A DNA stretch of 64,000 bases from Devriesea agamarum (GTDB taxonomy: Bacteria; Actinomycetota; Actinomycetes; Actinomycetales; Dermabacteraceae), in assembly GCF_900070355.1 (NCBI RefSeq), contig NZ_LN849456.1, positions 992,001-1,056,000 of the forward strand. Direction: 5' to 3'. Positions 8,719 to 35,114 of this stretch are shown in pieces (the stretch's first letter is position 1; every line of letters begins with the position of its first letter). The translations under genes were made by a program, and so were the position numbers. The notes beneath the pieces were generated by a model that saw nothing but the letters and a program-made list of their open reading frames with translations, searched no databases and was not told where the DNA came from.

Positions 8719-8879
8719 GGTATAGCCGGTGGCGTTGGCGACAAGATCGCTGCGTATCCCTTCGGGACCTGCGCACCTCATAGGTACGACATCCGGCACA
8801 TCAAACAGTTCGCTACGGACTGACACTTCACAACGGATCGTCCGGCACGTACCTGCCGGTGAAGGGACAGTACGCCATC

Positions 8880-30436: not shown

Positions 30437-31684
30437 ATGCCGTCACCATCCGCCACCGTGATCGATCCGCCTCGCACATCCGACTACACCCGGTCCCCTG
30501 ACTTCACCCGTCTATGGTTTGCCCGCGCAGCCTCCGACGCCGCGACCGCCATTGCCATGGGAGCGATCCCTTTAATTGCGGTGCGTATCTTGGATGCATC
30601 TACTCTGATGATCTCGTTGATCACTGCGGTGTCGGGAATCGTCGGAGCCTTGTGCGCTCTCCCCCTGGGCCCTAGCGTCGATAGACGGCGTAAACGTCCG
30701 ACGATGATCGCAATGGACATATCGCGTGCCATTTTGCTGATGTCGGTTCCCATCGCCTCGGGTTTTGGACTGTTGACATTCACCCACCTCCTCGTGGTTG
30801 CATCCGTGACCTCACTGGGCGCCATCCTGTTCAGCGGTGCATCCACCGCCCATCTCAAAGACCTCGTTCCATCCCGAGACCGCACCCATGCCATCGGCAA
30901 GCTTGAATCCACCTTCTGGGTTTTCAACATGGTCGGTCCAGCAGCGGGTGGAGCAGTGGTCCAAGTCCTCGGGGCAACCGCCACCCTCGCATTGCAAGCT
31001 ATCGGCCTGCTGCTGTCCGCTCTAGGCGTATCACGCATACAAAAACCGGAGTCCACGCCACCCCGCACACCCACACACCACTTCTTCGCAGAGGCTGGAG
31101 CCGGATTCACAGAAATATTCCGACACCCCATTTTGCGGGCACTCTTTATCAACTCGACACTCTTTGCTGGCATGATCGCCTGGCTCAGCCCGCTAGAACT
31201 GGTGCTACTGCTGCGCGATCTTCACCTTCCGGCGTGGCAATATGGTCTCGCGTTAGCGCTTCCCAGCCTCGGCGGAGTCATCGGTTCCTGGATCGCCTCA
31301 CGGTATGCGAGCCGGCACGGGCAGATACCCACTTTGATCACTAGCTCGGTTCTGCGCGGGTTGCCGGTTGTTGCCATCGCTTTTACTCCCACCGGCCTCA
31401 TCGGCGTCCTCATCTATATTGTGGCGAATTCACTGCTCCTTACGGCGGCGGGGGTCTTTCGCCCCGTGTATTCGGCGGTGCGTCTGGACGCCACCCCCGA
31501 CGCCTATCTCGCGCGGGTCACCACCGCATTTACCCTCGGCTCACGCGGCGCCGCTCCCATCTTCGCGCTGCTCGGCGGCATACTCGCCTCGATCCTCGGT
31601 ATCCGCAGCGCACTCTTGATCGGGGCGATACTACTCATCGCATCCACCCTCATCCTTCCGTGGCGCCACCGAGCCGCCGCCTAA
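30437..31684 (+). CDS. MFS exporter (EntS/MFS_3-like)
   Basis: This 415-residue protein has about twelve hydrophobic segments split by a central hydrophilic loop (around RIQKPESTPPRTPTHH). The cytoplasmic loop between helices 2 and 3 reads GPSVDRRRKRPTM, the MFS motif-A position. The C-terminal repeat ends in WRHRAAA. Proteins of this shape export macrolides, siderophores or other small molecules; the substrate cannot be told from sequence. ATG 30437 was chosen because GGAGG lies seven bases upstream; ATG 30431 is too close to that site. Confidence 0.88.
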   Translation: MPSPSATVIDPPRTSDYTRSPDFTRLWFARAASDAATAIAMGAIPLIAVRILDASTLMISLITAVSGIVGALCALPLGPSVDRRRKRPTMIAMDISRAILLMSVPIASGFGLLTFTHLLVVASVTSLGAILFSGASTAHLKDLVPSRDRTHAIGKLESTFWVFNMVGPAAGGAVVQVLGATATLALQAIGLLLSALGVSRIQKPESTPPRTPTHHFFAEAGAGFTEIFRHPILRALFINSTLFAGMIAWLSPLELVLLLRDLHLPAWQYGLALALPSLGGVIGSWIASRYASRHGQIPTLITSSVLRGLPVVAIAFTPTGLIGVLIYIVANSLLLTAAGVFRPVYSAVRLDATPDAYLARVTTAFTLGSRGAAPIFALLGGILASILGIRSALLIGAILLIASTLILPWRHRAAA

Positions 31685-31816: not shown

Positions 31817-31822
31817 TACACT
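31817..31822 (+). promoter_or_regulatory. -10 element of the leuS leader transcript
   Basis: TACACT ends six bases before the ATG of the short leucine-rich reading frame at 31829. The transcript would start at or next to the A of that ATG. The -35 region (around 31793-31800) is poor. Confidence 0.55.
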
Positions 31823-31828
31823 GGGTGC

Positions 31829-31855
31829 ATGGCCATGCTGCGACTCCTTCCGTAG
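31829..31855 (+). CDS. Leader peptide MAMLRLLP upstream of leuS
   Basis: An eight-codon frame reads Met-Ala-Met-Leu-Arg-Leu-Leu-Pro-stop (codons CTG, CTC and CTT for leucine). Three of eight residues are leucine, and the gene downstream is leucyl-tRNA synthetase. The ATG coincides with the predicted transcription start, so it would be translated without a leader. This is the arrangement expected for ribosome-mediated attenuation: shortage of charged tRNA(Leu) stalls the ribosome and favours read-through of the hairpin at 31984-32005. It is too short to be recognised by gene finders. The evidence is positional and compositional; no expression data are available. Confidence 0.6.
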   Translation: MAMLRLLP

Positions 31856-31937
31856 CCGCGTCGAACAAAGCCCGTCCCGTTCGCCTCGCCGTCAGCTGCC
31901 GGTGGTTGATGTTCGTTATTGACACCGGCGACGCTCA

Positions 31938-31986
31938 GTCGGCAGAGCGCGACCCACGGTCAGTTGCGGGCATCGGCGCGGCCGAC
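31938..31986 (+). promoter_or_regulatory. Candidate alternative stem in the leuS leader
   Basis: GTCGGC (31938-31943) and CGCG (31948-31951) can pair with the contiguous CGCG-GCCGAC at 31977-31986. This uses three bases (31984-31986) of the 5' arm of the terminator hairpin. An earlier stem GCCGGTG/CACCGGC (31898-31904 with 31923-31929) could be the pause structure. Mutual exclusion is partial, so this is a weak model. Confidence 0.35.
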
Positions 31987-32005
31987 CCCTGTTCACACAG
32001 GGGTC
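31984..32005 (+). terminator. Attenuator-type hairpin before leuS
   Basis: Perfect 9-bp arms (31984-31992 and 31997-32005) with a TCAC loop are followed by TCTTTGTG. It stands 104 bases before the leuS ATG and after the leader peptide, so it would stop leader transcripts. The rest of 31685-31816 holds nothing I can identify. Confidence 0.6.
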
Positions 32006-32108
32006 TCTTTGTGCGATAACACTCGCCGCCAGTTAAGGACCCACCCGAGTTGAATTGCCGATGCGCGGCACGCATGGAGCCCGCCGGCGCCTGAGGACGA
32101 GGAAAAAC

Positions 32109-35100
32109 ATGACCGAGGTATCTCACCGCTACACCGCTGAGACAGCGGGCACCATCGAAGAGCACTGGCAGGAGGTGTGGGCCCGCACCGGTGCCTTCGA
32201 GGCTCCGAACCCCGTGGGTGATCTCGCCCCGTCCGATGGGTCCGCCATCCCTGGCGATAAAATGTTTATTATGGACATGTTCCCCTATCCTTCGGGTCGG
32301 GGCATGCACGTGGGCCACCCCCTGGGTTACATTGCGACCGATGTCGTCGCGCGATACCACCGAATGCTCGGCAAAAACGTGCTCTACACCATGGGCTATG
32401 ACGCGTTTGGTTTGCCCGCTGAACAGTACGCGGTGCAGACCGGAACCCACCCCAGAGTCAGCACGGAACAAAACATTGAGACCATCCGCAAACAGCTGCG
32501 GCGCCTCGGACAGTCCCACGACCTGCGTCGTTCCTTCGCCACCATTGACGACGACTATGTGAAGTGGACCCAGTGGATCTTTTTGCAGATCTTCAACTCC
32601 TGGTACGACCCGGACGCAGTGCGCGAGGACGGCGGCACGGGTAAAGCGCGTCCGATTTCTGAGCTCAAAGGCGCAATTCAGGACCGCGATATCGACCCGT
32701 GGGCGCTTGCGGATCGTCTCGGCATCGAGCTGCCTAAGTACTGGCGGGGTCGTAAACCCGCCGAGGAACACTGGGATCCAGCGAAGAACACCCCGTTTGA
32801 CTTCCTGGTGCAGTACGAACCGCATCACATGCGCGAATTGGTGGACTGTTTCCGATTGGCATACATCTCTGACACGCCGGTGAACTGGTGCCCGGGCCTT
32901 GGAACCGTGCTGGCTAATGAAGAGGTCACCGCCGAAGGACGCTCGGAGCGCGGCAACTTCCCGGTATTCCGCTCGACCCTGCGACAGTGGAATATGCGGA
33001 TCACCGCCTACGCTGACCGCTTAATTGATGATCTAGAGAAGGTCAACTGGCCGGACGCCATTAAGTCTATGCAGCGGCATTGGATTGGTCGCAGCCACGG
33101 GGCCGAGGTGACGTTTGAGATCGCTGACACGGAGGAGAAAGCAGAGCAGAGCTCTCCTCGCGTTCAAGCCCAGGCCCGCGCACACTTTGACGTGTTCACC
33201 ACTCGTATCGACACCCTGTTCGGCGCCACGTTCTGCGTCCTCGCGCCCGAGCATCCGTTGCTGGCTGACCCGGCGACGTTGCCTAAGCAGTGGCCGGCCG
33301 AGTGTCGGGATAGGTGGACCGGCGGCGCATCCAGTCCTCGCGAGGCGGTCGCGGCCTACCAGGCGCAGGCTGCGGCAAAGGACGACGACGAACGCACCAC
33401 CGATGACAAAGCAAAAACCGGTGTGTTTACCGGCTTGTTCGCAATTAATCCGATGGACGGTCGCCATCTGCCCGTCTTTACTGCCGACTATGTGCTCACC
33501 GGTTACGGGACTGGGGCGATCATGGCGGTTCCCGCTGAGGACGAACGCGACTACGCCTTCGCTGAGGCGTATGACCTCGACGTGATCCGTACGGTGCAGC
33601 CTCCGGCTGACTTTGAGGGCGGCGCCTACACGGGTGACGGCGAAAAGATCAATTCCGCCAACGACGACCTAGATTTGAATGGCCTGTCAAAAGATGAAGC
33701 GAAGGCTCGCGCCACCGACTATGCGCAGGAGCGCGGTTTCGGACGTGCCCGGACCACGTTCCGGCTTCGAGACTGGCTGTTCTCGCGGCAGCGGTATTGG
33801 GGCGAACCCTTCCCGATTGTCTATGACCTGGACGACCCAGACGTCCCGATTGCTCTACCCGCTGATCAGCTGCCGTTGACTCTGCCGGAAGTGGACGACT
33901 TCTCCCCGCAGACCTTTGATCCGGAGGACGCAGATTCCGTTCCGGTCACTCCGCTCTCCCGCGCAACCGACTGGGCCGAGGTGACATTGGATCTCGGCAA
34001 AGGCCCTCGCCGCTACCGGCGCGAGACCAACACGATGCCCAACTGGGCAGGCTCGTCGTGGTACGAGATTCGATACATTGACCCCACGAACGCCGACTGC
34101 ATCGTCGAACCCGCCAACGAAAAGTATTGGATGGGTCCGCGGCATGACGGCGATGTCGGCGGCGTGGATTTGTACGTCGGCGGCGTGGAACATGCCGTGC
34201 TTCACCTGCTGTATGCACGCTTTTGGCACAAGGTCCTGTTCGACCTTGGGCATTTGTCGAGCCAGGAGCCATTCCAGCAGCTGTTTAACCAGGGTTATGT
34301 ACAGGCGTACGCCTACACGGATGCCCGGGGCGTGTATGTTCCCGCTGAGGAGGTGGTTGAGAGCTCCGATGGCCGCTTCACCTGGAACGGAGAAGAGGTC
34401 CAGCGCGAGTACGGCAAAATGGGCAAGTCGCTGAAGAACATGGTGGCGCCTGACCAAATTTATGCGGATTACGGTGCCGATACCTTCCGCGTGTACGAAA
34501 TGAGCATGGGGCCGTTGGATATGTCCCGCCCGTGGGAAACGCGCGCCGTGGTCGGCTCCCAGCGATTCCTGCAGCGCCTGTGGCGGCTCGTGATTGATGA
34601 AGAAACCGGTGAAGTGATTGTCTCCGAGGAGGAGGCCGATAAAGCGACCAGGCAGGCTGTTCACCGTACCATCGACGGTGTTCGCTGCGATATGGACGGC
34701 ATGCGCTTTAACACCGTCGTCGCTAAGCTCATCGAGCTGGTCAACTATCTGACGAAGCTGAGCGGCAACGGAACGCGTATTCCGCGAGAAGCGGTGGAAC
34801 CGCTGGTGTTGATGACGGCTCCGCTCGCCCCGCATATGTGCGAGGAACTGTGGCAGCGTCTCGGGCATAAGCAGTCTTTGGTTCGTGCTCCCTATCCGGT
34901 TGCTGATCCGGAATATCTGGTGCGCGAGGCTGTGACTTGCGTGGTCCAGATCAAGGGGAAGGTTCGTCACCGGCTCGACGTGTCCCCGGAGATCAGCGAA
35001 GCAGACCTGGAGGCTCTGGTTCTTGCCGATCAAAAAGTCATCGATATCCTCAACGGTGCACCCGTGCGCAAAGTGATCGTGCGCGCACCGAAGCTCGTAA

Positions 35101-35114
35101 GTATCGTGATCTGA
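32109..35114 (+). CDS. leuS: Leucyl-tRNA synthetase
   Basis: LeuS charges tRNA(Leu). The 1001-residue class I synthetase has HVGH (67-70, HIGH signature) in [14 protein letters not shown], a long CP1 editing domain (about 260-560) with [14 protein letters not shown], and KMGKS (about 770-774, KMSKS signature). The anticodon-binding domain and the C-terminal domain ending [19 protein letters not shown] follow. ATG 32109 has GAGGA six bases upstream. The upstream leader peptide and hairpin suggest control by leucine supply. Confidence 0.97.

Follow-up and report, generated by a model that had tools for sequence, protein, structure and literature searches.

The leuS upstream region of Devriesea agamarum raises the question of whether a short leucine-rich reading frame and the hairpin that follows it form a regulatory leader and, if so, how such a leader might govern the leucyl-tRNA synthetase gene. 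The window, i.e. the whole 64,000-nucleotide stretch that was analysed, holds the elements listed in Table 1. A preliminary description had placed TACACT six bases before the ATG at 31829, the start of MAMLRLLP, and a perfect 9-bp hairpin 128 nt beyond the stop codon and ahead of leuS; a reading of the sequence bears out each of these elements. The spacer between the hexamer and the start codon is GGGTGC (6 nt), the frame reads ATG (31829–31831) GCC ATG CTG CGA CTC CTT CCG TAG, and the hairpin joins GACCCCTGT (31984–31992) to ACAGGGGTC (31997–32005) around a TCAC loop, so that an intrinsic terminator lies between the leader frame and leuS. The short U-rich tail that had been described is indeed there, but with TCTTTGTG it is only moderately U-rich. 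A search of both strands with the leader signature (TAnnnT, 6–7 nt, ATG or GTG, and a short ORF with at least three Leu in five codons) returned a single occurrence in the window, at 31829. On the 3' side of leuS, a long frame lies on the opposite strand.

Table 1. Elements of the predicted leuS leader of D. agamarum; positions are those of the window.
Element	Position	Strand	Basis or remark
-10 hexamer TACACT of the leader promoter	31817–31822	+	Sequence; spacing kept in relatives
Predicted leaderless leader ORF, MAMLRLLP*	31829–31855	+	Sequence and leader scans of relatives
Leu control codons of the leader ORF	CTG 31838–31840, CTC 31844–31846, CTT 31847–31849	+	
Leader stop codon TAG	31853–31855	+	
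Strand 1 of the conserved helix, GCCGCGUCGA	31855–31864	+	Starts on the final stop-codon base, 5 nt past CUU
Variable loop of the conserved helix	31865–31972	+	108 nt here, 6–58 nt in relatives; folds as a long rod
Strand 2 of the conserved helix, UCGGCGCGGC	31973–31982	+	1 nt ahead of the terminator
Intrinsic terminator hairpin, 9 bp	31984–32005	+	Sequence; terminator helix kept in relatives
U-rich tail, UCUUUGUG	32006–32013	+	Many relatives have a stronger tail, UUUUUU
leuS, leucyl-tRNA synthetase	32109–35114	+	ATG at 32109

The leader recurs widely among relatives. Upstream regions of leuS were taken from Dermabacteraceae, Actinomycetaceae and a class-wide sample, the Devriesea window genome being the sole representative of its genus among the genomes searched. 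A leader precedes leuS in 39 of the 46 Dermabacteraceae genomes examined (46 of 53 regions with duplicates unmerged) and in 45 of 89 regions sampled across the class. The scan of Actinomycetaceae gave one match in 55 regions, a chance-like yield, and otherwise no leader. The leader is likewise missing from three Dermabacter-group genomes, from Helcobacillus, from the two TAE3-ERU Dermabacteraceae and from one further genus. Where leuS regions of the first three of these groups were read (L034, L036, L037, L031, L032), a -10-like box lies near leuS instead. Control scans for runs of Ala, Gly, Val, Ser or Thr produced 0–1 matches per set, and the matches for Arg and Pro can be put down to the tails of the same leader ORFs, which are rich in these residues. 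A scan of the phylum, with filters strict enough to miss Devriesea's own leader, detected the element upstream of leuS in Streptomyces, in several further families and in a genus from another class, g153 (L239, L240, L243; MAAHLLLIWPR and similar), where it is either old or transferred.

Among the leader peptides of the relatives are MASTLLLP, VARRLLLP, VTRRLLLMQPRRTRPAPTPRS, MRAVRLLLSEPR and VRGLLLLIGPR, and MAMLRLLP* is the counterpart of their endings RLLLP*, RLLLSEPR* and GLLLLIGPR* (asterisk, stop). The preliminary description had staked its proposal on conservation of the Leu codons, and these are kept. In 69 of 79 leaders the -10 box stands 6 nt from the start codon and in the other 10 it stands 7 nt away, the scan having permitted 5–8 nt. 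Such conservation strongly supports the leucine leader of predicted leaderless type, with its terminator, that had been proposed before leuS. The last Leu codon is CUU in all but one of the leaders (78/79), while CTT accounts for 3 of the 44 Leu codons in the first two thirds of Devriesea leuS. Because this near-invariant last control codon is an uncommon one in such GC-rich genomes, it hints that one particular tRNA-Leu may be the sensor.

The conserved core of the leader is a helix that the preliminary description overlooked (strands 1 and 2 in Table 1). It comprises 10–11 bp, its 5' strand starting in the stop codon and its 3' strand ending 0–3 nt ahead of the terminator; 5 nt separate the last Leu codon from the GCCG of strand 1, and the loop is free to vary from 6 to 108 nt, Devriesea having the longest. 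Within the Devriesea leader, strand 2 is the sole partner that matches strand 1 at 10 of 10 positions, and such a partner arises in 1.2% of shuffles. In a MAFFT alignment of 34 leaders, helix and terminator together show 95.3% paired cells and 18 both-sided changes, compared with 4.4 ± 1.6 after shuffling (0/500), a signal that collapses on sliding; the helix alone yields 64 both-sided cells against a shuffle maximum of 39 (1000 shuffles, 53 distinct blocks), and although relatedness inflates these covariation counts, swaps of C-G to U-A and of G-C to A-U occur in separate groups. Strand 1 overlaps the stop codon in some relatives, and others (LLLMQPRRT...) read the frame through it with the RNA sequence kept, which suggests that the helix is under selection as RNA. 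The competing stem that had been drawn earlier between 31938–31951 and 31977–31986 can be formed, as GTCGGC with GCCGAC plus CGCG with CGCG, but it appears in no minimum-energy fold and inspection by eye revealed no counterpart in relatives; we rejected it as an antiterminator.

A covariance model of the leader (R1) was built from 34 relatives with the Devriesea sequence left out. Its best match in the window spans 31829–32012 over the full model length (41.1 bits, E = 1.9e-8), and its runner-up there has E = 0.16. Rfam families, T-box included, gave no gathering match at the locus and nothing relevant at E ≤ 1, and no family matched the leaders of six relatives either. Elsewhere in the window, at 8818–8872 on the forward strand, lies an msiK RNA (Rfam RF01747, 58.9 bits). 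An alternative is a short ORF that arose by chance and a terminator that has nothing to do with it but serves the transporter gene upstream, which lies on the same strand as leuS and ends at 31684. Conservation, covariation, the held-out R1 match and the single signature in the window refute this explanation, to which we attach a negligible probability.

Attenuation of leuS through a leaderless leader, which the preliminary description put forward, has precedents. Seliverstov 2005 (PMC1262725) predicted leuS attenuators for two species of Streptomyces, S. coelicolor and S. avermitilis, and an RNA-seq transcriptome of S. lividans (2021, PMC8079986) reports a leaderless LeuL2 with a hairpin and U-run before leuS. 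Because of these two reports, we regard the leuS leader as an already described type. The peptide MRAVRLLLSEPR of our sampled relatives is identical to S. lividans LeuL2. Devriesea shares with the Streptomyces leaders a Leu-rich frame of leaderless type, 6–7 nt past a -10 box, and the R1 match identifies the same helix and terminator as in the MRAVRLLLSEPR sequences. In contrast, its peptide is MAMLRLLP, a UAG at the position of the Streptomyces GAG ends the frame earlier, and its helix loop measures 108 nt as opposed to about 30 nt. The constant distance from the -10 box, together with the mapped homologue in S. lividans, leads us to infer a leaderless transcript start at 31829. We found no description of a leuS leader outside Streptomyces in the open-access literature, closed-access papers being beyond reach; with that caution, what the present analysis adds is a wider distribution, a covarying helix and the near-fixed CUU. 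The polycysteine attenuators of mycobacteria (Canestrari 2020), as far as their citation in PMC13236596 presents them, are likewise leaderless, amino-acid-responsive short ORFs, but respond to cysteine and precede other genes.

Weaker relatives of the element were found in the phylum scan before leuA (L246, L248), leuC (L249) and ilvB (L250), the gene names being recognised from the translated proteins. L246, from another lineage of the phylum, departs from the usual leuA LEU element in that its LLLLS* leader precedes a hairpin and a strong terminator; the leuC locus carries the Leu-rich frame CTG ATC GCT CGC CTC CTC CTT AGC with a GCCGCGACGAG × CTCGTCGCGG helix. Devriesea leuA (L252, G000:C1, reverse strand) has a leaderless-type leader, MVLRMLLLRCRDESSKI (TATCGT, 6 nt, ATG), and then GCCGCGACGAG ... 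CTCGTCGCGG, a helix like that of the LEU element. The actinobacterial LEU element shares with the leuS leader a Leu-rich peptide and a GCCGCG helix; unlike in leuS, no terminator adjoins the helix before Devriesea leuA. Hallmarks of the LEU element are a pseudoknot and pairing of the Leu codons with the ribosome-binding site, neither of which was seen in the few leuS leaders checked by eye. The leuS leader, too, might act mainly via translation or RNA stability, with the hairpin of minor importance: the leuA leaders combine the same Leu codons and GCCGCG helix with no obvious terminator, the Devriesea U-tract is weak, and the scan found no good U-run terminator in the leuS leaders L019, L181, L188 and L191. 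However, nearly all leuS leaders keep a terminator with a U-rich tail, set 0–3 nt beyond strand 2, and a visual check showed no conserved base pairing between the Leu run and the ribosome-binding site of leuS, so that we consider this mode of action very unlikely.

The ilvB attenuators of actinobacteria resemble the leuS leader in having control codons, a helix that contains the stop codon and then a terminator, an order also found in Devriesea, but their codons are for Val, Ile and Leu. Before Devriesea ilvB (L254, G000:C1, reverse strand), the leader MHKLLVVVITGRG is followed by a helix, GGGCGCGGTTA × TACCGCGCCC, that overlaps the 5' arm of the terminator by a few bases. By folding, this leader would be a three-state attenuator: with ribosome footprints masked, terminator probability is 1.0 when the ribosome is at the stop codon, while with the ribosome on the control codons the helix forms and three basal terminator pairs fall to 0.32–0.73.

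Taking the sequence comparisons together, we consider it highly probable that the leuS leader is a leucine-responsive, ribosome-mediated attenuator, for which we propose the following steps: (i) RNA polymerase would start at 31829, the transcript opening with the leader AUG for leaderless initiation; (ii) the translating ribosome would stall at CUG, CUC or CUU when charged tRNA-Leu is scarce and proceed to UAG when it is plentiful; (iii) strand 1 would stay accessible while the ribosome occupies the first Leu codons and would be wholly covered once it stands at the stop codon, pairing of strands 1 and 2 reading the ribosome's position; (iv) the terminator would then end the RNA or be passed into leuS. 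Both the leucine response and its direction we infer. Counted from the first P-site base, a ribosome footprint extends for about 15 nt, and by that measure a ribosome holding CUU in its A site would cover one half of strand 1.

As to the direction, we prefer to place the helix on the antitermination side, a reading that we give about an even chance, because of this ribosome geometry and because the ilvB helix of Devriesea overlaps and weakens its own terminator. In the Devriesea leuS leader, folding with masked footprints left terminator probability at 1.0 in all four modelled ribosome states, and the terminator stays near 1 in most leuS leaders, which led us to reject a thermodynamic switch through the masked footprint. 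The leuS helix lies directly against the terminator but shares no bases with it, and no conserved antiterminator that overlaps the terminator was found in the leaders compared. The abutting helices may bear some relation to the helix chains and triplexes in attenuators attributed, in PMC4833913, to Lopatovskaya 2010, from the group of PMC1262725.

Within the same attenuator, helix 1:2 could instead favour termination as a classical protector. A stall with CUU in the A site would mask the first half of strand 1 and free strand 2 to pre-empt the 5' side of the terminator, whereas after release at the stop codon helix 1:2 would form and the terminator would work. Consistent with this possibility, such a stall masks 5 of the 10 strand 1 bases and lowers modelled 1:2 pairing to about 0.3 on average, the near-invariant last CUU would serve as the control codon, and most sequences would allow strand 2 to pair with the loop of the terminator (92.6% of cells). 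That pairing, however, shows no covariation (0 both-sided cells) and is no more stable than in shuffles (mean z about 0), and was rejected as an antiterminator; moreover, a stall on the earlier Leu codons would free strand 1 and give the wrong sign. We therefore regard the protector as possible but rather doubtful. In one species (L135, 1297–1407, forward strand), strand 2 could join the loop of the terminator in a striking 9-bp helix, TCAGCGCGG × CTGTGCTGA, a possible antiterminator there.

Returning to the antitermination side, the helix might act with no overlapping antiterminator at all, as a splint that closes a loop of any length (6–108 nt). By our estimate, a ribosome stalled on the Leu codons would then be separated from the polymerase at the terminator by about 40 nt of effective RNA; alternatively, the helix would be jammed at the terminator base. 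Either way, the hairpin would be unable to close in the RNA exit channel. We hold this version to be improbable; if true, it would account for why only the distances from Leu codon to strand 1 (5 nt) and from strand 2 to terminator (0–3 nt) are fixed.

In summary, our study defines a predicted RNA element that would sense leucine ahead of leuS, shared among actinobacterial families and also present in a single genus outside the class. Rfam holds no family for this leader element, which is here wider and better defined. The combination of control codons and helix is seen again upstream of leuA and leuC, where the codons are for Leu, and upstream of ilvB, where the codons differ. The fixed geometry of codon, helix and terminator offers a testable case of whether an abutting, non-overlapping helix may control termination.
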